From positions 1 through 49,035 of IMG/VR virus record IMGVR_UViG_3300037628_000105: 49,035 nt of DNA; one strand, 5' to 3'. This stretch comes from a virus. A model generated the notes under the pieces. That model saw only the letters and a list, made by a program, of their open reading frames with translations. It was not told where the DNA came from and searched no databases. The translations under genes and the position numbers were made by a program. Below are positions 5,554 to 43,839 of this stretch, in pieces. Position 1 is the first letter of the stretch. Each line of letters begins with the position of its first letter.

Positions 5554-7212
5554 GTGGCTGATCAAAATCTGCGCGACTATTTTGAACGCCGTAAAGGCCA
5601 GATGAAGCTTGAACGGTCATCGTTTATTCCACACTATAAAGATCTGTCGGATTTTGTGCAACCTCGGCGCGGGCGCTTTACTCAGTCGGATCGTAATCGG
5701 GGTGGGAAGCGGCATCAGAATATTATCAATTCTCGCGCAACTCAGGCTCTACGTACGGCAAGGGCTGGGCTCATTGCAGGGACGATGTCTCCTAGTCGGC
5801 CATGGTTTAGACTAGAGACTACGAACCCTGAGTTCATGGAAGTTCAGCGTGTAAAGGAATGGCTCCATCGTCAGGAAGAACTCCTTCGTACGATCCTGAA
5901 TGACAGCAACTTCTATAACATGGCTCCCCAGATGATTGGTGAGTTGCTCCTGTTCGGTACCGGTTGTATGACACAGGTGGATGACTTTGAAGATGTCGCT
6001 CGCTTCTATACTCATACGGCGGGTAGTTACATGATTGCTCAGGATCACAGATATGTGGTCAATACGCTAGTCCGTGAACAGGATATGACAGTTGAGCAGT
6101 TGGTAGAATGGTTTGGTTTAGAGAACGTCAGTACAACTGTTAAAAATCTCTGGTCTAAGGGCGACCTTGCTGCCTGGGTTCCAATCACTCACTTCATTGA
6201 ACCTAATCCCGATCAGCGGGATAATAACGCCCTAGCAAATAACAATCCATTTCGTTCGGTCTACTATGAAACCAATAATAACGAGAAAGATCAATTTCTA
6301 AGTGTTGGTGGTTTCAAGGACTTCCCGGGCTACGTTCCACGATGGGATGTTACAGGCGAAGATATCTACGGTACTGATTGCCCCGGTATGACTTCCCTTG
6401 GTGATGTCCGTGGTCTCCAGATTGAGGAGAAGCGGAAAGCACAGGCCATCGATAAGATGGTGAACCCGCCGTTGATGGGACCCGCCGAACTCCAGAATGT
6501 TCCGGTTAGTAGTCTGCCCGGTAGCTTAACGATCTACAACGGCATTCAAGGTCGTGAAGGATTGCGGCCGATCTTTGAAGTTAAGCCACAATTACAGGAC
6601 TTCAAGGAGGATATGGATCGTACCGAGCGCCGGATTAATGAAGCGTTCTTCGTTGACATGTTCCTCGCCATCTCGAACATGGAAGGTATCCAGCCCCGTA
6701 ATCAGTTGGACATTCTTCAACGGAACGAGGAGCGTCTGCTTCAGCTCGGTCCCGTACTAGAGCGTATCCATGGGGAGTTCCTCTCTCGTCTGATTGAGCG
6801 TACTTTTGCTCAAGGGGTGAGGGCGGGGATCATTCGGAATGCTCCGCCTGAGATTGAAGGACAAGAGATCAATGTCCGGTTCGTCTCGAACCTGGCTATG
6901 GCCCAGAGAGCGGTCGCGGTTCAACCTATCGAACGACTTACGCAGTTCGTTGGCGGCTTAGCACAGTTCAATCCGGAAGTTCTGGATAAGATGGACTTTG
7001 ATCAGACGGTTGATGAATACGCTAAAGCGATTGGAGGTCCGCCTTCTATTGTTAAACCCGATGCTGAAGTCGCGGCTATACGTGCTCAGCGCGAACAGGC
7101 TGCTCAGATGCAGCAAGCCTTGGAGATGGCTAATACGGGAGCCTCCGCTGTTAAGCAGTTGGCTGATGCAAAGACGGGAGATGATAGCGTCTTAACGGAA
7201 GGTGCGGGGTAA
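5554..7212 (+). CDS. Portal (head-tail connector), T7 gp8-like
   Basis: 552 aa with a GTG start preceded by AGGGG. It matches the T7-type head-to-tail connector: DYFERRKGQMKLERSSF at the N-terminus, RATQALRTARAGLIAGTMSP (about 60-79), RPWFRLET, and GRPIFEVKPQ/ERRINEAFFVDMFL-type helices after residue 330. Twelve copies would form the ring through which DNA enters and leaves the capsid. The C-terminal 60 residues are Gln/Ala-rich helix. Stop overlaps the next ATG. Confidence 0.9.
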   Translation: MADQNLRDYFERRKGQMKLERSSFIPHYKDLSDFVQPRRGRFTQSDRNRGGKRHQNIINSRATQALRTARAGLIAGTMSPSRPWFRLETTNPEFMEVQRVKEWLHRQEELLRTILNDSNFYNMAPQMIGELLLFGTGCMTQVDDFEDVARFYTHTAGSYMIAQDHRYVVNTLVREQDMTVEQLVEWFGLENVSTTVKNLWSKGDLAAWVPITHFIEPNPDQRDNNALANNNPFRSVYYETNNNEKDQFLSVGGFKDFPGYVPRWDVTGEDIYGTDCPGMTSLGDVRGLQIEEKRKAQAIDKMVNPPLMGPAELQNVPVSSLPGSLTIYNGIQGREGLRPIFEVKPQLQDFKEDMDRTERRINEAFFVDMFLAISNMEGIQPRNQLDILQRNEERLLQLGPVLERIHGEFLSRLIERTFAQGVRAGIIRNAPPEIEGQEINVRFVSNLAMAQRAVAVQPIERLTQFVGGLAQFNPEVLDKMDFDQTVDEYAKAIGGPPSIVKPDAEVAAIRAQREQAAQMQQALEMANTGASAVKQLADAKTGDDSVLTEGAG

Positions 7213-30926: not shown

Positions 30927-31054
30927 TCTCCAACCTCCCATGCAAGCAGCGCTCTAACTTCGAGTAGATCTTGCTGCTCATTACCGCGTACCTGATCTAC
31001 GGCCACGTCAACAGCGTTGATGAGGATTTTAATCTGTTCATCAGTGAGTATCAT
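30923..31054 (-). CDS. Small helical protein
   Basis: 43 aa from ATG 31054 with AAGGAG five bases upstream; the longer in-frame start at 31114 lies deep in the polymerase gene. Mostly one helix: TDEQIKILINAVDVAVDQVR and LLEVRALLAWEV. Overlaps the polymerase stop and the next GTG start. Confidence 0.55.
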   Translation of the reverse strand: MILTDEQIKILINAVDVAVDQVRGNEQQDLLEVRALLAWEVGE

Positions 31055-32909
31055 ACCAACTCCTTCCGATGGTATAGTCTCCTTCGTGGGGGCAAGCAAT
31101 GTTGTAATATTCACCGGCCCATGTAATCGCCTTCGAGGCTAGTGCCCCCGCTTCCTCAGCGATACTGGGATGGCATTCCCATTGCCATTCATCGTGATAC
31201 CAGATAACAGTACCCCACATTTCCTTATAGGGCCAACGCTGGTTCATCCACTTGTGCCAGATGTTATACGCGGCACTCATCATCACGGCTTCGTCGCTCT
31301 GCAAGAAATAGCACAATATCATATGAGGGCTCTCAACCAGAATGGGCCTACCGTCCAATCCCCTGATCCAGCCGTCGCTGTACTCCATACGATTGTAACG
31401 CTTATTGAACCACTTCTTAGCTGACCTACGCCACTCCTCTGTAGCATCATCGATCAGCTTCTTGAGGCCGGGCAGCTCATTGAGGTAGCGTTCCTTCAAG
31501 GCTTTACCGTCAGCTGCTGTCCCATCGACAACTTGTCCGATCTTCGCATCGCCAGCTCCAAAGATAAAACCGTAGAAAAAATTCTTAGCTCTACTACGAC
31601 TAGGCGCACCCGACCGCTGTTGATTAAAACTATGTAGATCGGTCCAAAGGACCGCTCTGGTAAAATCTTCATCTCCCATCCTCGCTGCTAATTGCCTGAT
31701 CTGATTACCCTTACTGTCACACCCTACTAATACCCATCCCGGCTTGGCTATGAAGATCGAGCGCATCCATTTGGCAAAGAAGGCGTTGGAGTGTGGAGAG
31801 GGGACGTTAACTATTCCTGAGTGTTTTGCTCGCCCTGTTGTGGCCAATCCTGTAACGCGCGAAGGTATCCGACCATCGGGCCGTATAGTTGCCTTCCACC
31901 CTTCGATAATACCGCGCCTAGCCTTGCACTGTACCCGCTTGGCAACAAGTTTTCCAAGGCCTCCGCTAATTCCCTCGAAGGGGTCATCCTTACTGAGCTT
32001 AGGAGATGTCCGTTGTTTGGCATTGTTTGTATTCCACTCTGCTGGTTCCCATCCGATATCTAGTAGGAAGTCTTTGACCTCCTTGTTCTTATCTAGATCA
32101 ACAGGACGAAAGTTGATACGAGAGAAAGGACCGCCAACATGGCGATAAGCACCATCTCCGAGATCGCTATCGTCAAGCCACCTCTCAACTGACAGTGAGT
32201 AGCTACCATCTTTCTTAAATGGTTTTTTAACCCAACCATATTCCCCCTCCTTCTTTGTCTCCTTGATCTCTACTACAAGAGGCAACCTAGGCCCGACCCG
32301 ATGATCAATCCGTACAATCCAACGATTAAGGGTATCAAGGCACTTTGCCATGTAAGGTTGGTCCACCATCCACCCGTATTCTTCTTGGTTCTGGAGGTTC
32401 TCAAAGAGCTTGAAGTTAAGGCGGTGCGCCTGCTCCCAGCCTTCCCCACGTCCTTCCGCTTGAAGGGCACTATAGGTGAGTTCAAGGATGAGAACGTCCT
32501 CGGTACATCGGTGTAGCATGGCATCGGAAAACTTACTCCAATCCTCATGCTCTGGTTTCCCCCTACCCACACGATATCCCCAGGCCGCGAGTGAATGTGG
32601 ACTACACTTTCCGGCATTAGGCGGAACCTTACGCTTCGGTCTCTGGAACCTTGACACCAACAAGGTGTCGTACTTCTCACCCTTGTACTCCCACCCGAAC
32701 ACCTTTCGCAATGCTGGAAAGTCAAATCCGATACCATTATGTGTTACCACTCTATCATATTGCTCCAACTTCGGGAGCATGTGATGGACTGTATCAGGAG
32801 TGTATTGGAAAACCTCCTGCGTTTCCAAGTCCTTAATGACACCGCACCAGACACGGGTGAGGTCAGGCAGGAAGCCATCCGTTTCACAATCGAAGAACGC
32901 TGTACTCAT
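31041..32909 (-). CDS. Family A DNA polymerase (T7 gp5-like)
   Basis: 622 aa replicative polymerase. The 3'-5' exonuclease motifs are FFDCETDG (5-12), VVTHNGIGFDFPALR and HRCTEDVLILELTY. Polymerase motif A is VGCDSKGNQIRQLAARM, motif B RSRAKNFFYGFIFGAGDAKIG-type O helix, motif C WYHDEWQWE. T7 has Glu (DASGLELR, residue 480) where this protein has Gln; that residue is the sugar steric gate in this family. The O-helix keeps a Tyr at the T7 Y526 position. Weak ribosome site; TAATGA overlap with the upstream gene. Confidence 0.93.
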   Translation of the reverse strand: MSTAFFDCETDGFLPDLTRVWCGVIKDLETQEVFQYTPDTVHHMLPKLEQYDRVVTHNGIGFDFPALRKVFGWEYKGEKYDTLLVSRFQRPKRKVPPNAGKCSPHSLAAWGYRVGRGKPEHEDWSKFSDAMLHRCTEDVLILELTYSALQAEGRGEGWEQAHRLNFKLFENLQNQEEYGWMVDQPYMAKCLDTLNRWIVRIDHRVGPRLPLVVEIKETKKEGEYGWVKKPFKKDGSYSLSVERWLDDSDLGDGAYRHVGGPFSRINFRPVDLDKNKEVKDFLLDIGWEPAEWNTNNAKQRTSPKLSKDDPFEGISGGLGKLVAKRVQCKARRGIIEGWKATIRPDGRIPSRVTGLATTGRAKHSGIVNVPSPHSNAFFAKWMRSIFIAKPGWVLVGCDSKGNQIRQLAARMGDEDFTRAVLWTDLHSFNQQRSGAPSRSRAKNFFYGFIFGAGDAKIGQVVDGTAADGKALKERYLNELPGLKKLIDDATEEWRRSAKKWFNKRYNRMEYSDGWIRGLDGRPILVESPHMILCYFLQSDEAVMMSAAYNIWHKWMNQRWPYKEMWGTVIWYHDEWQWECHPSIAEEAGALASKAITWAGEYYNIACPHEGDYTIGRSWYDTH

Positions 32910-33079
32910 TAATCAAGGCTTTCATTTGTCAATATCACTACGGTACTATCAAACTCCATACCCGTAATTTCAAACGGCTCCCCTATAACCCCTTGACAAT
33001 CTAAATATACATCCTCAGCCTTTACTATGGCGTCGGAATGAAGCGCTTGAAGTTGGTTTATCATCTCTTTTACCGTCAT
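32909..33079 (-). CDS. Small MTVK-family protein (copy 1)
   Basis: 56 aa from ATG 33079 behind AGGAAGG. MTVKEMINQLQALHSDAIVK, then EDVYLDCQG and a beta-rich ITGMEFDSTVVILTN. Copy 2 at 34402-34557 has the same MTVK-start, D-(V/I)Y and ITGM/IGGM blocks, so the two are paralogues. Function unknown. Overlaps the sigma-like gene by 65 bases in another frame. Confidence 0.6.
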   Translation of the reverse strand: MTVKEMINQLQALHSDAIVKAEDVYLDCQGVIGEPFEITGMEFDSTVVILTNESLD

Positions 33080-33593
33080 TCTGCATTTCCTTCCTAAACC
33101 GTCTAACAATCATCTCTATTGCGTTAGCTGATTTCCGAACTCTATGACCAATCGCCACATAGTCATCTCCGAGGATAAGTGCATCGTGTAATACTTCTCT
33201 GACATCATCATCCTTATCCGCTATGATTTGCAATAACTCTTGAGTATATACTACTTGCTCAGGCGTTGAGCCATTTGAGATACGCCCCTGATCTACACTC
33301 GCTTCCAACCGCTCATCGAATTCAAGAGGGGCAGCTTGTGTATGCTTCTGCTCTCGTCTACGATGGTTAATACGCTCACCGGGAAGTATCTTTGTCTCGA
33401 ACCAAGTAGCAAAGGCGAACTCATCCTTGTACTCTTCCCATCGCTCTAAGGCCCTAGTGTATGCCTCTTGTACGATGTCCTCTCCAATATCTCTAGCACC
33501 CTTCCGACTATACCGAGAGACGAGGCCCTTAAAGAACTTCTTATAATGTAGCGTCAGCAGACTGTCGAATTGCTGTGGCCTTTCTGATATCAT
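33015..33593 (-). CDS. ECF-like RNA polymerase sigma factor
   Basis: 192 aa with the two-domain layout of group 4 sigma factors. Region 2 (about 10-85): HYKKFFKGLVSRYSRKGARD, GEDIVQEAYTRALERWEEY, FATWFETKI and NHRRREQ. Region 4 (about 115-175): ELLQIIADKDDDVREVLHDA, LGDDYVAIGHRVRKSANAIE as the helix-turn-helix, and MIVRRFRKE. It would bind host core RNA polymerase and redirect it to phage promoters; phiEco32 is a precedent. No anti-sigma was recognised. Start overlaps the upstream gene. Confidence 0.75.
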   Translation of the reverse strand: MISERPQQFDSLLTLHYKKFFKGLVSRYSRKGARDIGEDIVQEAYTRALERWEEYKDEFAFATWFETKILPGERINHRRREQKHTQAAPLEFDERLEASVDQGRISNGSTPEQVVYTQELLQIIADKDDDVREVLHDALILGDDYVAIGHRVRKSANAIEMIVRRFRKEMQNDGKRDDKPTSSASFRRHSKG

Positions 33594-33720
33594 CCCAGCT
33601 GTCCTTCCGTGCTAGGTTCTTCTTTGTTACCAGCTCCAACCGCTCCCCTGTCTCGGGATCAATACGCCAGCATGGAGCCGGCTTAGCTTCTGCTTGATCG
33701 AACAAGTTCTTATTACTCAT
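33541..33720 (-). CDS. Small hypothetical protein
   Basis: 59 aa from ATG 33720 with AAAGGAG six bases upstream. KNLFDQAEAKPAPCWRIDPE, GERLELVTKKNLARKDSWDD. Overlaps the sigma start by 53 bases and its own start overlaps the stop of the upstream small ORF (ATGA). Possibly translationally coupled to the sigma gene. Confidence 0.65.
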   Translation of the reverse strand: MSNKNLFDQAEAKPAPCWRIDPETGERLELVTKKNLARKDSWDDIRKATAIRQSADATL

Positions 33721-33845
33721 AGCGTCTCCTTTAACTCTTTCCGCAAGCGTCTAATCTCTTTCAATAATTCAAATTCTCCTACAAGAAAAAGGGAAGGATC
33801 AGACAAACCGCCACAATGGCTAACGCAGTGATCGTAACGCCGCAA
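33717..33845 (-). CDS. Small protein with TTG start
   Basis: 42 aa. RRYDHCVSHCGGLSDPSLFL, then a basic helix LLKEIRRLRKELK. The only usable start is TTG 33845, with GGGAGG one base before it, unusually close. Stop overlaps the next ATG (ATGA). Cys/His pairs suggest a metal knuckle. Confidence 0.45.
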   Translation of the reverse strand: MRRYDHCVSHCGGLSDPSLFLVGEFELLKEIRRLRKELKETL

Positions 33846-33851
33846 TCCTCC

Positions 33852-34037
33852 CTATTTAGCACGATATCTCCATGCATATAATCTATCACAACTGTCAAAT
33901 AACCCCTGACGTTTGATAGTCTCTAGCCAACGACCATCATGACTTCCTACACGAACCGGATACCAAGCAAACCAATCATGCCATTGCTCTAGTCGGATTT
34001 TCTTTTCCTTGATAGTTTCTACACAATCAAACTTCAT
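33852..34037 (-). CDS. Small aromatic-rich protein
   Basis: 61 aa, GGGAGAGG before ATG. KFDCVETIKEKKIRLEQWHD, WFAWYPVRVGSHDGRWLETI. Many Trp residues and a conserved-looking GRWLETI. Not recognised. Confidence 0.6.
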   Translation of the reverse strand: MKFDCVETIKEKKIRLEQWHDWFAWYPVRVGSHDGRWLETIKRQGLFDSCDRLYAWRYRAK

Positions 34038-34049
34038 TACGACCTCTCC

Positions 34050-34217
34050 CTAATTATAGTTCCTATACTCACCGTGACTAAGGGGGCTAACATCAAGCGC
34101 AAGTTCAAGTCGGTTAATCAAAGCATCCATCTCTGGTGCATCATCAGTCAGCCCGGTAATCTGTTGCACCTCCTCAATCGCTGTTGCTATGATGGATGAG
34201 ATGTCTTCACGCCACAT
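34050..34217 (-). CDS. Small acidic helical protein
   Basis: 55 aa from ATG 34217, AGGTG nine bases upstream. WREDISSIIATAIEEVQQIT, MDALINRLELALDVSPL, ending YRNYN. Unknown function. Confidence 0.6.
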   Translation of the reverse strand: MWREDISSIIATAIEEVQQITGLTDDAPEMDALINRLELALDVSPLSHGEYRNYN

Positions 34218-34228
34218 TTTATTCACAC

Positions 34229-34390
34229 CTACCCCCCTTTTTTATTATCCTTTATCCTTACGGACTTACCTCCACATACCGTGCAGTCCACGCCAGGGTG
34301 TTCCGTCCTCGGCTTCACTGGCTCATTACAGGTAGGACATACCTCATAGCCCGGTATCATCCAGATTGGTATAATATTATTGTAGGACAC
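34229..34390 (-). CDS. Small zinc-ribbon protein, GTG start
   Basis: 53 aa from GTG 34390 with GGGAG seven bases upstream. VCPTCNEPVKPRTEHPG and DCTVCGGKSV give two CxxC knuckles 18 residues apart, a likely zinc ribbon. Could bind nucleic acid or protein. Basic tail. Confidence 0.65.
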   Translation of the reverse strand: MSYNNIIPIWMIPGYEVCPTCNEPVKPRTEHPGVDCTVCGGKSVRIKDNKKGG

Positions 34391-34401
34391 ATTACCGCTC
34401 C

Positions 34402-34557
34402 CTAGTCACCTTCCTTTGGCAGCAGCTCGACACCCGTATTATCGTAAACCATACCTCCGATATCAAAAGTACCTTCTCCGTATATATCAGATGCTACTAC
34501 ACTCACTTCTGGATTTACCTTTGAAAGCCTATCAATCAGTTGCTTAACGGTCATCAT
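34402..34557 (-). CDS. Small MTVK-family protein (copy 2)
   Basis: 51 aa; two adjacent ATGs (34557, 34554) behind GGGAG. MTVKQLIDRLSKVNPEVSVV, SDIYGEGTFDIGGMVYDNTG. Paralogue of 32909-33079. Unknown function; lies directly downstream of the primase-helicase gene. Confidence 0.6.
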   Translation of the reverse strand: MMTVKQLIDRLSKVNPEVSVVASDIYGEGTFDIGGMVYDNTGVELLPKEGD

Positions 34558-34566
34558 ACTCGCTCC

Positions 34567-36225
34567 CTAGTTAGGGTTCTTCTCTTGTATCTCATTAAAC
34601 AGACTCGTTTTCCAATCCCAATAAAGCGGAATTACCCCGCTCGCCCCAAACTCTCTATCTTCTAGGATTACAAGGCGTCTCATATTCCTTTGCTCTACCT
34701 CTAAGTCCGGATCTTTTGATCCCTCTAGCCCTAGCATCAGGTTACAGGAGCGCATCATAGCCCGGCTCCCTGCAAACTGGTGACTGAATACCTTACCTCC
34801 CCGCTCATGGGGCACACCACTCTCCGGAGCCTTCAGATGGCAGAAGATGAAGACGACGATGTCAAGATCTTTCGCCATCGCAGCGAGTTCCTGCGCGATC
34901 TCCTGTAGCTGAGTGTTTGCTTGACCGCTTGCAATTCCATTAGTAAGGTTCGTAATAGGATCAATGAAGACAGCCTTCGCCCCTTGCGCGACAGCCGCCA
35001 TGATATCACCTCGTAGGCTATCCCAACCAAGGTGCTGATATAGAGAGAGAAGCATAAGCTTATCGCCCACCTTCTTCGCAGCTTCATCATATGCCTCGTA
35101 ATCAAATTCAATCTCGGGATCATGAAAGAACTTACCGACTACCTTTCCCAAGACCATTTGTACAGTTTTACGGTTAGCTTCCTCCGGCTTAGCCAAGAAT
35201 ACTTTAAGATCATGCTCAACAATAAGATGGGCAGCGATAGTATTAACAACTTCACTTTTACCCATCTTGACCCCGGCTCCCAGATAGATTGTCTCGCCAA
35301 AGCGTATACCTCTTGTGAGTTTAGTAAGCCCGGGCCAGGGCCATGAGAGTCCCAACTCAGATTGTATACGGCCTGCTGCGTACAAACTTTTTGCATTAAC
35401 TAACCTCGTATTCTTGGGGATTTCAGCCTTGAAGAGGACGGCATTACACAGGGCCATGGAGCGACCTTGCATCACGCAGTCATTGGCATCCTTACCAGGG
35501 AGCGTGACAGTCTGGGCATGAGGTAGGATTTGTAAAGCGTCTTCGGTCGCAAGCTGTCCTTGCTCATCCTTATCGAAGACAAGGACAATCTCTTTGAAAT
35601 TGGCCCGAAGTTCTTGTAGCTTATCCGTTAGTACTTTACGTGCAGAGCCAGCTCCTGAAGGTAGACTGACAACTGCTGGATCGTAGTGGGAATAGAGAGT
35701 TCCCCGGGACTTGTTCTTGAGAGCTTGGTAGAGTGCAACGGCGTCCAACTCACCTTCAGTAATGTACAATCGCTTAGCGCCAGTCGCCAAAGCTTTGTCC
35801 CATCCAAAAAGGTCAACTTCCCTGAGTGTCCCGGTGACCCACATCCTCTTGTTCTCAATGATACGCGCCTTATATCCCACGATCCTTCCGGCTCGTTGGT
35901 AGGGATAGTAATGTAGGACAGGGGTAACTCCGTCTGTTTCAGACAAGCCGATCTTAACGCCGAAATACTCCAGAGCAAACTGCTCAAGCTGGCGGTCGGG
36001 TAGAGGGACGACCGGCAACCGGGAAATCTCGCTAATCTCAGCGTCGACGTCACGTTGGTCTCGTTCTCGCTTTGCTGGTTTGAAGTCATCGGGCCGATCT
36101 CCATATGGATCAGGGACATAGCTACTACAGCTAAAACACCATCCATCATGCTTACCGTCGTTCTCGAATACCTGTAGGCCATCCTTGGTACCGCATTCAT
36201 GGGGTAGCTTCTCGACACAGCTCAT
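34567..36225 (-). CDS. Bifunctional primase-helicase (T7 gp4-like)
   Basis: 552 aa. N-terminal zinc motif: LPHECGTKDG and GWCFSCSSYV (Cys/His ligands, residues 6-35). TOPRIM primase: ITEGELDAVALYQAL (about 147-161) and IVLVFDKDEQGQLATEDAL. Hexameric RecA-like helicase: YLGAGVKMGKSEVV (Walker A, about 307-320), KAVFIDPITNLTNGIA (Walker B), VFIFCHLKAP and FAGSRAMMRSCNLMLGLEG. Unwinds DNA and makes primers for the family A polymerase. GGAG before ATG. Confidence 0.9.
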   Translation of the reverse strand: MSCVEKLPHECGTKDGLQVFENDGKHDGWCFSCSSYVPDPYGDRPDDFKPAKRERDQRDVDAEISEISRLPVVPLPDRQLEQFALEYFGVKIGLSETDGVTPVLHYYPYQRAGRIVGYKARIIENKRMWVTGTLREVDLFGWDKALATGAKRLYITEGELDAVALYQALKNKSRGTLYSHYDPAVVSLPSGAGSARKVLTDKLQELRANFKEIVLVFDKDEQGQLATEDALQILPHAQTVTLPGKDANDCVMQGRSMALCNAVLFKAEIPKNTRLVNAKSLYAAGRIQSELGLSWPWPGLTKLTRGIRFGETIYLGAGVKMGKSEVVNTIAAHLIVEHDLKVFLAKPEEANRKTVQMVLGKVVGKFFHDPEIEFDYEAYDEAAKKVGDKLMLLSLYQHLGWDSLRGDIMAAVAQGAKAVFIDPITNLTNGIASGQANTQLQEIAQELAAMAKDLDIVVFIFCHLKAPESGVPHERGGKVFSHQFAGSRAMMRSCNLMLGLEGSKDPDLEVEQRNMRRLVILEDREFGASGVIPLYWDWKTSLFNEIQEKNPN

Positions 36226-36707: not shown

Positions 36708-37007
36708 TTAATTTTGGTGGTTAAACCTTATGTAGACGTAGACGGTGCTCTTATGCGGGGCATTGTACCCACTCCCCTTCCTACGGAAGCCATGCTTGAA
36801 TAGCATCTCCTTGTATACTTCACGTTGCTCCGTATTCAAGGTGATTACTAGGAAGGCACAATGCTTTTGTACCTGAATATACTCCTCTAACTGCCGTTCC
36901 ATATCGTCCAGATCGAACCCGTCGCTGTTTCCTTCGGTACAGGTGGTATGCCCGAAGTTATATAGGACATGGCCACCACAGCAGCCGGGAAAATAAGCTA
37001 TATCCAT
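36708..37007 (-). CDS. Hypothetical Cys-containing protein
   Basis: 99 aa. IAYFPGCCGGHVLYNFGHTT, then an acidic DLDDMERQLEEYIQVQ helix and a C-terminal LVITLNTEQREVYKEML/YVYIRFNHQ. Possibly a small alpha/beta fold. GGAGAG before ATG. Last gene of the amidoligase-containing operon. Unknown function. Confidence 0.6.
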   Translation of the reverse strand: MDIAYFPGCCGGHVLYNFGHTTCTEGNSDGFDLDDMERQLEEYIQVQKHCAFLVITLNTEQREVYKEMLFKHGFRRKGSGYNAPHKSTVYVYIRFNHQN

Positions 37008-37100: not shown

Positions 37101-37853
37101 TTAGAGGACTCGTAGGGCGTTAGCGTATGACTGTATCGTCTGTCCTTCAAGGCCTGGAGCAGTGTTAACTTCAAGGACGTAGGCTCGTTCCTGTTTCTCA
37201 TTGTAGATAACATCAACTGCTCCGAAGTCAAGGCCAGTAGCTCGGTGAGCATCAATGGCGACATTAAGGACACAGTTTTCGGGATTACAATCTTCCCGTG
37301 CAAAAACAAAACCGTTTTGCCAGCTTCGTATCTGCCAATTTGGGTCATCATGATCTTTCCTCCGTGCCTTTCGGGCTACATCGATAACATCTCCGTTAAC
37401 TATATGGACCCGGTATTCCTCCTTCTTCGGGATGTATTGGGTGTAGAGAGGGGCCGCTACTACAAACGCTGGGTCCTCCGATATCACAATACCTTCTCCA
37501 GAATGCCCCGCTAGGACAGTGCGACAGACAACAATCTTCTTGTCCTCGATCCATTTATAGGCTACCGCTTCGTCTGCCGTCCAAGGTGGTGCAAGTTCCC
37601 CTAGGTTAGCCGCATCGAGTATTTTGAAGAAGGTTAACTTGTTGGTTGCGTGTTGCACAGCCTCCGGGGGATTAATGATCCGACAATCCCGAACCTCATT
37701 CGGCAGCTCAATACAGCCCCAATTAATCACGGTCTTATCGGGACCCCCTCGAAATCGTGACCTCTCTCGCTTGATCTGTTTGATACCTAGCTCTTTTGCC
37801 AGGGCCTTAACCGATTTACTGCCTGTTCTGTACGGATAAATATACATAGCCAT
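37101..37853 (-). CDS. ATP-grasp ligase of the amidoligase cluster
   Basis: 250 aa. ATP-grasp features in order: VINWGCI, ATNKLTFFKILD, KIVVCRTVLAGHSGEGIVI (flexible phosphate loop), KEEYRVHIVNGDVIDVARK, and GLDFGAVDVIYNEKQERAYV with LEVNTAPGLEG (Mg-binding E-x-N). This RimK-like group forms acyl-phosphates and joins them to amines, making peptide-like bonds. The substrate is unknown. Overlaps the amidoligase start by one base. Confidence 0.85.
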   Translation of the reverse strand: MAMYIYPYRTGSKSVKALAKELGIKQIKRERSRFRGGPDKTVINWGCIELPNEVRDCRIINPPEAVQHATNKLTFFKILDAANLGELAPPWTADEAVAYKWIEDKKIVVCRTVLAGHSGEGIVISEDPAFVVAAPLYTQYIPKKEEYRVHIVNGDVIDVARKARRKDHDDPNWQIRSWQNGFVFAREDCNPENCVLNVAIDAHRATGLDFGAVDVIYNEKQERAYVLEVNTAPGLEGQTIQSYANALRVL

Positions 37854-38824
37854 TAGAAATCATACTCCTCTTCATCCTCATCATCCCCGTTATCTACCCA
37901 TACTGCCCATCCGCCGCCTGGCCCTGGATCATCCAGGAATTTTTTAGGTGGTATGAAGACGGGCGGTGGTGCGGCGTGACCCGGAGCAAACTCCACTTCT
38001 GGGTCATCTTCCTCGGCATCCTCTAGCTCTTGCGGCCGCCCTTCTTCGTAAGCAATCTCTTGTATACGACGGACACCGTTCATCATTAATACATCCATAT
38101 TAGGACATATGAGTTCCTTTGCATATTTCCCCATGACCATATCAACAAAGCTTTGCCCACCTTCCATACTTACACCTTCGACAACGGCTGGAGGTATTGA
38201 GAAATCTTTTGATGCCTCTCGAATTTTGAGCAGCATTTCAGCCCAGAGTTGGATCGTCTTGTAGTCCTTTGGGGTACGTAGCGCACGGAACTCCAGGGTA
38301 CCGAACTTTCTTAGAGAATTGAGATTGATGGAGGAATATCTCATGTCCCCGTTTAGTCCGTGGAGCCCCCGGAATGTTCCGCGCTGCTGCCCTTGAATTA
38401 GGATATCATAGATATATTCCGCATCTTTACCGCGTAGACAGAAGAGATTACCTTCTCTATCCTCCCCACACCAACGAACCAGTAAATCTTCCAGCACCAA
38501 GTACAGGCAGATGAACGTCATGGTCTGCTGGAATGTCCAGGTCTGCATATTCAGATGAATATGTACGCCACATCGGTCGCTTGGCTTCAGGCTTGATCTA
38601 TTCGCTTTAAACGTCTCCCAAAGATGGACTAAAGCGGTTTGCACCTGATCTACGGGGAGGGGCTGACTAACGTATTCAAATCCATCACCACGCAACGATC
38701 CATCGCCCTCTACATGCCAATATTTAGCCACATGGCCGGGCAAACGTATCCCTTCGATCTCGATTTCAATCCCGACTTCGCCTCCTACTTTACGAAGTCT
38801 AAACATATCTTTTATCTTAGCCAT
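37853..38824 (-). CDS. COOH-NH2 amidoligase (Amidoligase_2-like)
   Basis: 323 aa. GGEVGIEIEIEG (about 14-25), the WHVEGDGSLRGDGFEYVSQP block (36-55), CGVHIHLNMQTW (85-96) and INLNSLRKFGTLEFRALRTP (166-185) are the four motifs of the glutamine-synthetase-like amidoligases. Metal would be held by the Glu and His residues. The C-terminal 60 residues are acidic and proline-rich and probably disordered. Pairs with the second amidoligase at 39403-40197. Confidence 0.85.
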   Translation of the reverse strand: MAKIKDMFRLRKVGGEVGIEIEIEGIRLPGHVAKYWHVEGDGSLRGDGFEYVSQPLPVDQVQTALVHLWETFKANRSSLKPSDRCGVHIHLNMQTWTFQQTMTFICLYLVLEDLLVRWCGEDREGNLFCLRGKDAEYIYDILIQGQQRGTFRGLHGLNGDMRYSSINLNSLRKFGTLEFRALRTPKDYKTIQLWAEMLLKIREASKDFSIPPAVVEGVSMEGGQSFVDMVMGKYAKELICPNMDVLMMNGVRRIQEIAYEEGRPQELEDAEEDDPEVEFAPGHAAPPPVFIPPKKFLDDPGPGGGWAVWVDNGDDEDEEEYDF

Positions 38825-39413
38825 TTAGATCCTCCATCAGAACTTCTTTCAAGAAGAAGAACTTATCGTTCAGTCGTAGTTGGCCCCTTACAATATTGCC
38901 AACCTGTCCACGGGTTCTATAGAGTAGTTTTCCGTTGTGGATAGCGAAGCGACGAGAGAATGCAGCGCTAGGATGCATGGCGCGGAGAATATCAGGGACC
39001 TTCGGATATTTTCCTCGAATTGTTTTGTCCATCTCCTTGGAATGGATAAGATGACGATGATCTACCCCCACCTCGCCGGCTATTAAGCGTTGTGATCTTG
39101 CGTTATTAGATGTTAATCCAATTTTCCACTGCCTTACCGGCATTCTCTCGACATAGTAAACGGCACCGCCGGGTATGTTTACCATCCCTAATGGCACCGG
39201 GTTTAGATCAAAGGCATCATCCGGGAAGTTTCCAATCTTTGGCTCTGCCTCTTTATAGATATCACCGATGCTAAGATATTTTATAAGGTAGTCTCTTTCT
39301 CCCTTACCCTGTTCAAGCCGGGTAATATATATCGGTCGTTTACGATACCGAATGATACTCCCTTGCAGGTACGATTTGGCATGTTGAAGGTCATAGAACT
39401 CCTTAGTTTGCAT
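38817..39413 (-). CDS. Conserved protein of the amidoligase cluster
   Basis: 198 aa from ATG 39413, six bases after GGAG; a longer start at 39482 lies inside the neighbour. Conserved-looking blocks: SYLQGSIIRYRKRPIYITRL, LNPVPLGMVN, VYYVERMPVRQWKIGLTSNN, and RFAIHNGKLLYRTRGQVG. I associate this pattern with phage amidoligase loci, but no function is known. Overlaps both amidoligase genes. Confidence 0.65.
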   Translation of the reverse strand: MQTKEFYDLQHAKSYLQGSIIRYRKRPIYITRLEQGKGERDYLIKYLSIGDIYKEAEPKIGNFPDDAFDLNPVPLGMVNIPGGAVYYVERMPVRQWKIGLTSNNARSQRLIAGEVGVDHRHLIHSKEMDKTIRGKYPKVPDILRAMHPSAAFSRRFAIHNGKLLYRTRGQVGNIVRGQLRLNDKFFFLKEVLMEDLNG

Positions 39414-40197
39414 GGTATTCTCCGATAATCTCCATTGCCTTACGTTGGTCACCGGTGTTGATAACCCCTTGTAGATCGACACCGCTCTTTATGATGGCAG
39501 GGATGATGCTCTGATCATTCACCACATTACCAACTGCCTTCCGGCTATTATGCCACATTATTAGCATCTCTTGTGGATTAGCAACCCAATAGTTGGAGAG
39601 AACACGGTACTCCAAGCCATATGGTTTAGGTCGGAAGGCACCGGCTTGACCGTACATTTGTCTGCGCTTCTGATCCCTATCCACCAGGAGGGAATGGAGA
39701 CCCAGATAAGCATCCATCTCACGTACTATTTCCGTGCATAGAACGAAATGATCATCGTCATATGGATCGGCACCCTCTGTCCAGCCAATATGGAGATGAC
39801 CAGCTGCCGTTCGCATACTAGAGTGTTGATCAGGCCGCTCATTAACCTGTCCCGTCCATGCATTAAAGTCGGGATCGCAGCCCAACTCTACCGCCTCTTT
39901 CGGCAATGTCTTCATATATTCTGGGTCGAACTCAGCCGTCGAGGAAAGGACGAACTCATATTCACTCGGCACCATCTTTCGGAGTTCACAGAGGACAGTC
40001 GTGACATTGTATTGAAAATCTTCGTACTTAATAGCCGGATCAATATTGAACTCCAATGCCATACCATCCACCTGTACAGCACCGCGCTCGACAGGGTATG
40101 GCTTCTCCTTAGTACCAGGGATGAGGCCATGTGCTGATATAAACTTGCCATCTAGTTGAACAAATAATTCGGGATCAGCACCAATTTTTATATCCAT
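39403..40197 (-). CDS. Phage-type COOH-NH2 ligase
   Basis: 264 aa. IGADPELFVQLDGKFISAHG, then VQVDGMALEFNIDPA, RTAAGHLHIGW and RPKPYGLEYRVLSNYWVANP are hallmarks of the COOH-NH2_lig family, a compact glutamine-synthetase-fold ligase. It should use ATP to couple a carboxylate to an amine. Start overlaps nothing; the class II amidotransferase ends one base upstream. Confidence 0.85.
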   Translation of the reverse strand: MDIKIGADPELFVQLDGKFISAHGLIPGTKEKPYPVERGAVQVDGMALEFNIDPAIKYEDFQYNVTTVLCELRKMVPSEYEFVLSSTAEFDPEYMKTLPKEAVELGCDPDFNAWTGQVNERPDQHSSMRTAAGHLHIGWTEGADPYDDDHFVLCTEIVREMDAYLGLHSLLVDRDQKRRQMYGQAGAFRPKPYGLEYRVLSNYWVANPQEMLIMWHNSRKAVGNVVNDQSIIPAIIKSGVDLQGVINTGDQRKAMEIIGEYHAN

Positions 40198-41316
40198 CTA
40201 CATTCCTCCAACTAGTTGGATATTTTCATCGTCAGCAAGGGCAACGCAGTCACCACATGCTGCATTATGGAGATCTAAGACAACGGAAGACTCATAATCC
40301 AAAGCGGATCGGCAGAACGTACACGCTTTGAACTGCTTATGGAACTTCTTTTCCGTCATTGGTTTCGCAAACAACTCCTCGATTTCTTCCTCAATCGCTT
40401 CGTCATTGGACCCACGGGGCGTCTTCGTCGGTGTTCCATCCGTACATTTCTTTTTCCCATTGCCGTTGGACGGAGCAATCATAGGGTCCGTGCTGTCCTT
40501 CTCCCCCTTTTGTCCTGAATTGGGGACGAACTTACCTGTTTTTTCATCCCATTCAGAGTTGCCTTTCCATACGCCCCTGCTAATAGGGAAAGAGGCGGTT
40601 ACGGGCGTGATAATTCGAGCGAATGGGGCAAGCAGGCCACCTGTTTGCTTAATCCCGTCTTTGAATGTCCACTTAAAGCGGAAATGATTGTCCGCTTTCG
40701 GATATTTAACCTCTTCAATGGTAATGCCACCCCGCCGCTCGACGCAACCCTCTAGCATCCACGCCTCGGAAGCAACAAACATCGTTGCTCGGTCGGCAGT
40801 ATATGCAAAGTGAAGCGGCCGCCGTATGTTTCTGATGAAGTTAAAGGACTTCTCTTTGGCGTCCCACCAGACTAACGAAGCCGCACCATCGAGATTTTCC
40901 CACGCATCAGCAATCCCTTTTTGCCGGATATGGTCGAAGATGGCTTCGCTATCTGTATCAAAGGCATGGGCGTTTACTAATCCAACCTCGCTGAGTAGCG
41001 TGCCGTTATGGACACCAGTAATATGTCCCGACACAAATGGGTGAGCGTTTTTAGCCGTGACTTTACCCTTGGTAGCCGCTCGATTATGTCCAATATAAGC
41101 CATGTTAACTTTATTGAACATCTTATGGACATGACTGCGCATCAGGAGCTCGGTGGGTAAGACAGTATCTTTCATCACCTTAGCACTACCATCCAATCGG
41201 ATGGCCGCTATCCCGGTACTGTCACTACCCCTTAGTACATCGACCTGAAGAAGATCACAGAAAACTCTCTCCTCTACCAGCCCGACCTTGCCGAATACGG
41301 CAACAATACCACACAT
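40198..41316 (-). CDS. Class II glutamine amidotransferase with C-terminal zinc motif
   Basis: 372 aa. MCGIVAVFGKVG gives the N-terminal nucleophile Cys2 after Met removal. RGSDSTGIAAIR, IGHNRAATKGKV, NAHPFVSGHITGVHNGTL and DTDSEAIFDHI complete the Ntn-type glutaminase site, which releases ammonia. The C-terminal 100 residues contain a linker and CTFCRSALD...CGDC, a zinc-binding pair. It may feed ammonia to the ligases or transfer an amine. Confidence 0.88.
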   Translation of the reverse strand: MCGIVAVFGKVGLVEERVFCDLLQVDVLRGSDSTGIAAIRLDGSAKVMKDTVLPTELLMRSHVHKMFNKVNMAYIGHNRAATKGKVTAKNAHPFVSGHITGVHNGTLLSEVGLVNAHAFDTDSEAIFDHIRQKGIADAWENLDGAASLVWWDAKEKSFNFIRNIRRPLHFAYTADRATMFVASEAWMLEGCVERRGGITIEEVKYPKADNHFRFKWTFKDGIKQTGGLLAPFARIITPVTASFPISRGVWKGNSEWDEKTGKFVPNSGQKGEKDSTDPMIAPSNGNGKKKCTDGTPTKTPRGSNDEAIEEEIEELFAKPMTEKKFHKQFKACTFCRSALDYESSVVLDLHNAACGDCVALADDENIQLVGGM

Positions 41317-41331
41317 ATACCTCTCCTCCGT

Positions 41332-41991
41332 TTAAGCGTTACTTACGATAAGAGAAGACCTATCGAGACATAGGTCCTCAACGTAATCCATGTATCTTAT
41401 TGCCAATTCTTCTTGGTTCTGGAATTCAGGATGCGGTTGAAAGCAGAGACAGTTTTGCGCCGGATAGTAGAGGACTTCGATATCTATAGGCGCTCTATCG
41501 AAGACCACTAAAACCCCGTAGTCTGTCTTCATCCGTTCCTTCTTAGTGGAACAACTAGCTGTAACAATGATGTCAGCATCTTTACTGGGAAGCATCATTT
41601 GATGGTGAGTGCTCGTTACCTTGAAAGTCTTGCTGGTACGAACATCCTTTGCTTCATGAATGCCACCGGCATGACCATCGACATGCTGATATAATGAACC
41701 CCCACACATGACATTGAGGAATTGTCCTCCTCGGCAAATCCCTGCCATCGGGATATTAAGGGATAACCCTTGTTGGAAGATTAGTATCTCCCGATTATCA
41801 CGGAGAGGGTTGGTTGACGTGGAAACATGTTTCGCTTCACCGTACAAGTTAGGTGAAACATCATGTCCACCGGTGAATTGGATCAAGTCGGCGACATGAA
41901 TATCACGTTTCAGAACCTTCCACCCGGCACTGCGAAACATCCGTACATAGGCTGGATCGCCGTTCACGATAAATACTTTCTTTTGGCTCAT
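41332..41991 (-). CDS. Class I glutamine amidotransferase / peptidase C26-like
   Basis: 219 aa from ATG 41991 with GGAG six bases upstream. IQFTGGHDVSPNLYG, MAGICRGGQFLNVMCGG (nucleophile Cys), and CFQPHPEFQNQEEL (catalytic His and Glu) define the triad fold. Closest by motif to gamma-glutamyl hydrolases of the C26 group. It may cleave gamma-glutamyl bonds, trimming or removing residues added by the ligases. Confidence 0.82.
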   Translation of the reverse strand: MSQKKVFIVNGDPAYVRMFRSAGWKVLKRDIHVADLIQFTGGHDVSPNLYGEAKHVSTSTNPLRDNREILIFQQGLSLNIPMAGICRGGQFLNVMCGGSLYQHVDGHAGGIHEAKDVRTSKTFKVTSTHHQMMLPSKDADIIVTASCSTKKERMKTDYGVLVVFDRAPIDIEVLYYPAQNCLCFQPHPEFQNQEELAIRYMDYVEDLCLDRSSLIVSNA

Positions 41992-43030
41992 AGATAACTC
42001 CGTTTCCTTTGATGAATTCATCGTGGAACTCTTCCACAGTTCGAGTAGAGAAGTCGAAACCTTTTCTCGTTTGCTTACGCCTGAGACTGTCGACAGTCTC
42101 CATCAAATCCTTGCCCGGCATTATTAGGCCCTGTTTCTGTGGCTTTGGTTGCCAGGCCATCATCAATCCTGTATATTTCATAGATTTTACGGCTTTTTCT
42201 AGAGATTTGATAATAATTTTACCTTCAACCTGATAACCAGCATATTCTTCCATCTCAACTGAAGTTTGAGGATTATGATCTAAATAATTCTGTAATCCCA
42301 TGGGACCAAGTGTATTATTAAAAATGGTATGGCCGGCATTCACACCATAAGTATTATTTCTATACCAAGTTCCGCTCATTTGTCCCCACGAGGCCGCTAT
42401 GAAAGCAATAGCTGGATCGACGCCAAGTTTTACTAACGATGTCCAAGATTTCAGGATCTCTTCATGTTCATAGAGATATCGAAACTGCATAGCTGCCCCG
42501 ACAATATAAGAAGCAGTCATTTTTGTGCAATCTTGAATTGTACATTGAGTTTTCACATAATGAGCATGATCATTTACAAACGCCGTGGCATATGGGCTTC
42601 CGGTCATGCACCATTCTTGATACTCTAAGTATTTAAGTGCCCTGGGATTATAACCGGCTCGATCTACAAAGTATTTATGATTACCGGGGGACTCATAATT
42701 TAGGGACCCATAACAAGGTTGCATCCAATAATACTTTGTTTTATATTGGATTTTCCCATGAATAATGGCAAAATTATTTAAACCGCCAGCATCTCTTTTA
42801 TGTAAACGGGCTGCTGCCTTTTCCGCCGCAGCAAGGGCATTAAGAATAGGTATTTGCTGCTTTCCCTTATAGCGTTGAACCTCTTTCTCATCGACACCAC
42901 AATGGATACAGAGACGTTCCTTGGGAGGGACACGTTTGAAGACATAAATAACCCCCGGGTCTCTCTGATATGGAGGTTTATCATAGCGATGCCGATGTCC
43001 ATCACCGATTTTAGCTAGAAATTCAGCCAT
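41903..43030 (-). CDS. Unknown protein within the amidoligase cluster, AT-rich
   Basis: 375 aa, GGAG before ATG. An early CIHCGVDEKE motif, then NNFAIIHGKIQYKTKYYWMQ, DRAGYNPRALKYLEYQEWCM, and AFIAASWGQMSGTWYRNNTY. No family recognised. The segment about 42180-42800 is visibly richer in A+T at third positions than its neighbours, suggesting recent acquisition. The last 25 residues overlap the C26-like gene. Conserved order within the cluster suggests it belongs to the same pathway. Confidence 0.7.
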   Translation of the reverse strand: MAEFLAKIGDGHRHRYDKPPYQRDPGVIYVFKRVPPKERLCIHCGVDEKEVQRYKGKQQIPILNALAAAEKAAARLHKRDAGGLNNFAIIHGKIQYKTKYYWMQPCYGSLNYESPGNHKYFVDRAGYNPRALKYLEYQEWCMTGSPYATAFVNDHAHYVKTQCTIQDCTKMTASYIVGAAMQFRYLYEHEEILKSWTSLVKLGVDPAIAFIAASWGQMSGTWYRNNTYGVNAGHTIFNNTLGPMGLQNYLDHNPQTSVEMEEYAGYQVEGKIIIKSLEKAVKSMKYTGLMMAWQPKPQKQGLIMPGKDLMETVDSLRRKQTRKGFDFSTRTVEEFHDEFIKGNGVIYEPKESIYRERRSSLCTDVSQCRVEGSET

Positions 43031-43563: not shown

Positions 43564-43839
43564 TTACTCCTTCCGTCGCATCATCTGGTATTCGACACAG
43601 ACCAAAACTAAGCCGAGGCCGTGCTCTTCCTCATCGGAAGCTGTGTACGTCACAACATCGGTGAACGTAACTTGCACGCGCTTATTTACCGCCTCAAAAC
43701 ACGCTTCTTTGGTTTTGAACCAAGCAATATACGAACTACCGGCCGGAGTGATAACCTGCATCGAGTATCCATTGACCAGCTCATTGCTGCAGCCCGTGAG
43801 AGCCAGCAACAAAGCGGCAGCTAGAAAAATCTTCTTCAT
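43564..43839 (-). CDS. Lipoprotein
   Basis: 91 aa. KKIFLAAALLLALTGCSNEL is a lipoprotein signal with lipobox LTGC, so the mature protein (about 74 aa) should be anchored at Cys18. Two further Cys in the mature part. An o-spanin or an exclusion lipoprotein are possible, but no i-spanin partner is evident. Confidence 0.75.
   Translation of the reverse strand: MKKIFLAAALLLALTGCSNELVNGYSMQVITPAGSSYIAWFKTKEACFEAVNKRVQVTFTDVVTYTASDEEEHGLGLVLVCVEYQMMRRKE

Follow-up and report, generated by a model that had tools for sequence, protein, structure and literature searches.

A seven-gene ligase cassette of podoviruses and its linkage with gamma-glutamyl-cleaving enzymes

What is built by a phage gene cluster that encodes three ligases, a glutaminase and a hydrolase? 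The question is raised by a virus record of 49,035 bases (IMG/VR record IMGVR_UViG_3300037628_000105; its full length is called the window hereafter), which carries seven head-to-tail open reading frames (ORFs) on the minus strand at 37,101-43,030. In the order of transcription they encode U375, a Peptidase C26, a class II glutamine amidotransferase (GAT2), a COOH-NH2 ligase, U198, an Amidoligase_2 and an ATP-grasp ligase. A first-pass annotation had described these genes as contiguous, which they are, and as little explored beyond Iyer 2009. The latter does not hold, since the cassette has repeatedly been described in related podoviruses. According to two reports, a seven-gene "peptidoglycan modification cassette" is present in RIO-1, PSA-HP1, phiEco32, PA11, CW02 and LUZ24 and is credited to Iyer 2009 and Hardies 2013 (PMC5498523, PMC11945000); the second report repeats the peptidoglycan proposal for a LUZ24-like phage. 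Amidoligase and amidotransferase genes were found in OM43 phages (PMC10580990), and cassette genes are listed in TC6 (PMC6209634). The copy in the window is one more example of this well-conserved cassette. New here are the constraint to gamma-glutamyl chemistry and the recognition that U198 and U375 are conserved components of the cassette.

The cassette occupies about 6 kb of many podovirus genomes of 45-50 kb, including LUZ24-like and PA11-like Pseudomonas phages and phiEco32-like coliphages. Since it has been kept over large distances, its product must matter.

Linkage of the COOH-NH2 ligase with gamma-glutamyl cleavage

Profiles made from the window's proteins were used to search 109 sequences, namely the window, a copy of its own genome (L003), 18 stretches of named phages, 80 IMG/VR loci and nine contigs filed as bacterial. 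The COOH-NH2 ligase was present in all 109 by selection; GAT2 was detected in 106, Amidoligase_2 in 104, ATP-grasp and U198 in 102 each, C26 in 86, U375 in 78 and GGCT (gamma-glutamyl cyclotransferase, PF06094) in 34, and many of the remaining gaps lie at contig ends. The core genes are on one strand in every locus. The order seen in the window is the commonest one (30 loci; identical in L001, L002 and L008), and since dozens of loci share the same arrangement the cassette is not a chance grouping. Only a small number of other gene families turn up repeatedly between core genes.

C26 hydrolases and GGCT are unrelated, and both cleave gamma-glutamyl amides. When 60 cassette-bearing records were searched over their whole length, C26 was present in 48 and GGCT in 25, and each of the 60 had at least one of the two. 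GGCT occurred in 12 of 12 records without C26 versus 13 of 48 with C26. As a control, 30 viral records of at least 36 kb were sampled by their primase. All 14 records with the ligase had C26 or GGCT (12 GGCT, 2 C26), as opposed to none of the 16 without it; three of the ligases in this sample were missed by Pfam and recovered with our own profile. The Fisher values (4e-6 for GGCT with and without C26, and 7e-9) ignore relatedness, and the rows are not independent.

The two enzymes also exchange in place. L016 and L080 have the order U375-GGCT-GAT2-COOH-NH2 ligase-U198-amidoligase-ATP-grasp, with GGCT in the slot of C26, and the crAss-like relatives cr108_1 (C26) and phi14:2 (GGCT) differ in just this. 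In a tree of 71 rows the C26 state changed at least four times, three of the changes being required by branches with good support; both enzymes were never missing from the same row. The catalytic E80 of GGCT is invariant (n = 34). Because the COOH-NH2 ligase is near-universally linked with a gamma-glutamyl-cleaving enzyme, it is very likely, judging from gene content, that the product of the cassette passes through a gamma-glutamyl amide. The exchange makes this intermediate a concrete and cheap thing to look for.

Several observations weigh against this reading. C26 and GGCT occur together in 15 of the 71 tree rows, so they are not pure substitutes and strict mutual exclusion was rejected. 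The tree has too few independent C26 switches for a significant sign test; with so few independent pairs, the pattern is strong and not statistically proven. L132 and L137 have ATP-grasp and amidoligase and lack COOH-NH2 ligase, C26 and GGCT, and Bacillus phage 055SW001 carries amidoligase and GGCT alone. Furthermore, the specificity of C26 and GGCT is read from family membership, and the C26 enzyme could act as a plain glutaminase instead.

On balance, we consider it fairly probable that the seven genes work as a single set of enzymes whose product is amide-linked and sheds a gamma-glutamyl group during its assembly. The gamma-carboxyl group of L-glutamate would be linked to an amine by one of the pair of glutamine-synthetase-type ligases, most probably the COOH-NH2 ligase. 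Additional amide bonds would come from the other amidoligase and the RimK-like ATP-grasp, one of which would receive ammonia from the class II glutaminase, and C26, or GGCT in other phages, would cut off the gamma-glutamyl group, as in the PuuA/PuuD putrescine and BtrJ/BtrG butirosin pathways. We infer the order of these steps, glutamate as substrate and the roles of U198 and U375. GGCT frees glutamate as 5-oxoproline, a reaction for which the alpha-amino group must be free. Should C26 and GGCT act at one and the same step, the intermediate would be a gamma-linked glutamate with its alpha-amine free, a cap as in gamma-Glu-putrescine or butirosin biosynthesis; very probably, amide bonds are built and trimmed through such a cap.

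The known cassette and the window agree in that COOH-NH2 ligase, amidoligase, ATP-grasp, class II glutamine amidotransferase and a gamma-glutamyl-cleaving enzyme are all encoded together, beside replication genes, and the proteins without a named family are shared as well. Paundecimvirus TC6 even has the same order of seven genes. Differences are that the window has C26 and no GGCT, as in TC6 and CVT22, that its protein identities to the named phages are below 60%, and that its portal is of another type (see below). In PuuA/PuuD and PauA/SpuA, too, a glutamine-synthetase-type ligase is paired with a C26 gamma-glutamyl hydrolase, to which the C26 of the window is close; however, the window cassette is without oxidase or dehydrogenase and adds amidoligase, ATP-grasp, class II glutaminase, U198 and U375. 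In butirosin biosynthesis, BtrJ (ATP-grasp) and BtrG (GGCT) put on and remove a gamma-glutamyl cap. Phages also pair an ATP-grasp ligase with a GGCT-family enzyme, and the two genes touch in four loci, but acyl carrier protein or aminoglycoside genes were not seen and the window has C26 in place of GGCT.

The enzymes and the conserved proteins U198 and U375

Families were assigned with Pfam, NCBIfam and PHROG profiles, and residue conservation was taken from alignments of 86-109 relatives. The five enzyme families named in the first-pass annotation were confirmed (Pfam 3.8e-5 to 8e-21, PHROG 1e-52 to 1e-85), and so were its claims that the 198-aa protein is conserved and that the amidotransferase has a zinc tail; U198 and U375 are without a named family. 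Judged by the alignments, the class-marking catalytic residues of all five enzymes are intact, with no sign of decay.

The ATP-grasp protein matches RimK (PF08443, 3.8e-5; 23.8 bits versus the Pfam cut-off of 21) and phrog_2599 (1e-84). Its nearest solved relatives by profile are alpha-L-glutamate ligase and RimK, and K72, E146, R148, K162, D214, E228 and N230 are invariant or nearly so. It scores below the NCBIfam cut-off for RimK (S6 glutamylation; 18.7 of 331 bits) and below that of Pfam R2K_2 (19.3 of 26.2 bits), and thus was not placed in the R2K clade. Amidoligase_2 (PF12224, 5e-11) keeps E20, E22, E24, E50, H88, H90, E178 and R180 at 98-100%. In the COOH-NH2 ligase (PF14395, COOH-NH2_lig, 2e-10; phrog_3815, 4e-85), E10, D44, E49, H134, H136, R178, R189, E196 and R198 are invariant (n = 109); the Pfam model PF14395 misses clear ligases in full-cassette phages (G043, G047, G053).

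GAT2 matches GATase_6 (PF13522, 5e-14), with the glutaminase domains of GlmS and PurF as nearest solved relatives. The nucleophile C2 is kept at 98%, N104/G105 and D122 at 99%, and R79 is also kept. Only the glutaminase part matches; instead of a fused synthase domain of the GlmS, PurF or AsnB type there is a zinc ribbon, whose four cysteines C332, C335, C354 and C357 are conserved at 95-100% in 105 relatives. A LysW-like carrier role of this tail was rejected, as it has no conserved C-terminal Glu. We left aside the glutaminase match in L022, an oversized ORF that also matches capsid and protease proteins.

The C26 enzyme (PF07722, 8e-21) has an invariant triad C96-H197-E199 and an invariant SxHHQ motif (S137, H139, H140, Q141; numbering of the 229-aa ORF). 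Its nearest solved relatives by profile are lin1909 (uncharacterised), SpuA (entries 7d4r, 7d50 and 7d53, which we take to be SpuA) and PuuD, and this closeness is in line with a glutamate cap. Since the NCBIfam equivalog cut-offs are not reached (PuuD 31.1 of 266 bits, GCDPHdlase 27.4 of 250 bits), the enzyme is a member of the family and not an orthologue of PuuD or GCDPHdlase. Long versions of the cassette proteins, inspected for fused domains that might point to the substrate, contain no further recognised enzyme domain.

U198 belongs to a conserved family (phrog_11055, 5e-27). Its gene adjoins that of the amidoligase in 94 loci and that of the COOH-NH2 ligase in 90, and the genes mostly touch or overlap, which suggests a complex of the two amidoligases with U198; U198 probably holds the two together. 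The AlphaFold model of U198 is confident (pLDDT 94). Comparison with solved structures gave only short SH3/Tudor-like matches (best VIA Z 4.8) and nothing reliable; the N-terminus may at best be an SH3/Tudor-like barrel.

The gene for U375 adjoins C26 in 65 loci and GGCT in 11, and U375 would accordingly be a protein that works with the cleaving enzyme, be it C26 or GGCT. C106 is kept in 77, R184 in 79, E188 in 71 and H234 in 68 of 80 sequences. The model is confident only at about 61-250, and comparison with solved structures gave nothing reliable (best VIA Z 2.7). The named significant matches among viral models are to cassette-type phages, namely CVT22, CW02, RIO-1, Cronobacter phage GAP52 and Proteus phage 3H10_20. 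A tblastn search for U375 in the named phages gave no match, and profiles later recovered relatives; profile comparison with phiEco32 gp87/gp88 and Ab22 ORF19/20 gave no significant match, with shallow profiles.

Possible roles of the cassette product

Peptidoglycan modification is the published proposal (PMC5498523, PMC11945000). The ligases would add residues or amides to cytoplasmic precursors and C26 or GGCT would trim them, which would block superinfection or ease lysis. The substrate exists in nearly all hosts, in agreement with the many kinds of host infected by cassette phages, and the cassette proteins are probably cytoplasmic, since the proteins of the window show no transmembrane-like segment. 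However, although the label has been carried for more than a decade, we found in the literature no experiment, be it a biochemical test of the cassette or a test of peptidoglycan change, and among the families recurring between core genes we saw none of cell-wall, lipid or sugar enzymes. In addition, the D-iso-glutamate of the peptide stem is, by textbook chemistry, without the free alpha-amine that GGCT needs, and this favours a removable glutamate cap over cleavage at the stem. We therefore regard peptidoglycan modification as possible but rather unlikely. The make-then-trim pathway of the first-pass annotation stands in its ligases plus hydrolase and is strengthened by the C26/GGCT exchange; modified peptidoglycan as its product is an older published guess, and GGCT chemistry is at odds with cleavage of the D-iso-glutamyl bond. 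If, instead, a host protein is tagged in the manner of RimK or of the Pup ligase, the ATP-grasp and the amidoligases would add glutamate or a short peptide and C26 or GGCT would reverse it. The kinship of the ATP-grasp with RimK and alpha-L-glutamate ligase speaks for such a tag, as does the proposal that R2K-type ligases of phages modify host proteins (PMC4431377, PMC7824862). Yet the protein fails the NCBIfam cut-off for RimK, the C26 relatives that have been characterised use small gamma-glutamyl amides as substrates, a carrier or acceptor protein conserved along with the cassette was not found, and no cassette protein has a conserved C-terminal Glu or Gln, which makes tagging an unlikely function.

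A role in nitrogen or polyamine metabolism, in which gamma-glutamyl amines such as polyamine conjugates are made or recycled for replication or DNA packaging, would agree with the closeness of C26 to SpuA and PuuD of the gamma-glutamyl-polyamine route. The toxic early protein gp9 of LUZ24, a cassette phage (PMC5498523), hits the host gamma-glutamylpolyamine synthetase SpuB in a yeast two-hybrid screen, a result that is unconfirmed (PMC4635203), and a nitrogen role was claimed for phage ZRK32 from growth assays and not from enzymology (PMC10945688). Three ligases exceed the needs of simple conjugation, and we hold this role to be quite improbable. For DNA base hypermodification from amino-acid parts we see hardly any chance. 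A part in phage DNA modification has been suggested for amidoligase and ATP-grasp genes in other cases, and the cassette adjoins replication genes, but no base hydroxymethylase, base kinase or glycosyltransferase is among the window genes that PHROG can name. Anti-phage defence was dropped, as PADLOC matched none of the seven cassette proteins.

We thus prefer a pathway with a removable glutamate cap. It is tempting, if speculative, to go further and to picture a gamma-glutamylation pathway that is complete in itself, is confined to phages and yields a small molecule or tag not seen before. U198 would be the amidoligase scaffold and U375 a Cys/Arg/Glu partner of the cap remover, both without a recognised solved fold, and the pathway would have spread by exchange among unrelated head-tail lineages.

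Locus layout, neighbouring genes and distribution

Table 1 Genes of the cassette in the window
Product	Position	Strand	Remarks
ATP-grasp ligase, RimK / alpha-L-glutamate-ligase type	37101..37853	-	250 aa
Amidoligase_2 (glutamine-synthetase / gamma-glutamylcysteine-ligase superfamily)	37853..38824	-	323 aa
U198, conserved 198-aa protein	38817..39413	-	phrog_11055
COOH-NH2 ligase, phiEco32-like	39403..40197	-	264 aa
GAT2, stand-alone class II glutamine amidotransferase (glutaminase), C-terminal zinc ribbon	40198..41316	-	372 aa
Peptidase C26 / gamma-glutamyl-amide hydrolase, PuuD/SpuA-like	41332..41991	-	219 aa; longest ORF start 42021
U375, 375-aa protein	41903..43030	-	putative partner of the gamma-glutamyl-cleaving gene

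Each of the seven ORFs is preceded by a Shine-Dalgarno-like stretch. For C26 the start at 41,991 is more likely than 42,021, because it has the better ribosome site and homology begins there; the overlap with the U375 gene is then 89 bp. No RNA element was found at the cassette, and scans for promoters and terminators gave nothing beyond chance level. The downstream replication genes (primase/helicase, sigma factor, DNA polymerase) belong to the Zobellviridae type, and the polymerase shares 51% identity with that of an oyster Zobellviridae phage. Since the portal resembles those of Bordetella phage BPP-1 (42% identity) and phiV10 (40%), the window reads as a mosaic genome (compare 5554-7212 with 31041-36225). 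A 99-aa protein is encoded between primase and cassette (36708-37007) and has relatives that adjoin the cassette in a dozen other loci. Immediately upstream of the cassette lies the gene of a 91-aa putative lipoprotein (43564-43839; N-terminus MKKIFLAAALLLALTGCS).

A tblastn search with the COOH-NH2 ligase gave matches in 317 of 50,697 phage records. Across 84,980 bacterial and archaeal species a ligase was detectable in only nine contigs, all metagenome-assembled and at least some of them viral, and none was found in 14 well-known genomes. With cellular matches so limited, the ligase is in practice a phage family. Hosts of cassette phages include Pseudomonas, Escherichia, Vibrio, Cellulophaga, Planctomycetes and cyanobacteria.

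Some loci deviate in their content. L132 and L137, from primase-related phages, have an amidoligase of 545-550 aa in a reduced cassette. L104 and L107, contigs filed as Geobacteraceae and Stahlbacteria, contain COOH-NH2 ligase, C26 and GGCT, but neither an amidoligase nor an ATP-grasp was recognised in the vicinity; L107, with RNA polymerase beta-like and RNA ligase matches, probably represents a large phage. Two ATP-grasp ORFs per cassette are found in L023, L032, L039, L040, L049, L053 and L079, in most cases with one ahead of GAT2 and the other behind the amidoligase; those of L032 touch and may be one split gene. The cassette of Vibrio phage V07 (L013; 349 kb, "Straboviridae") forms a tight group with the one from Vibrio phage VP506 (50 kb), and the V07 record may combine two phages in one assembly. 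In Escherichia phage Bas89 (L005, 6475-7786) the COOH-NH2 ligase is annotated as two joined pieces with an HNH endonuclease gene inside, which is intron-like. The cassette of the cyanophage Lbo-JY46 of Leptolyngbya (L188, 2549-15307) has three C26-like genes and GGCT, and directly adjoins PncB and PrsA, genes of NAD and phosphoribosyl pyrophosphate (PRPP) metabolism.

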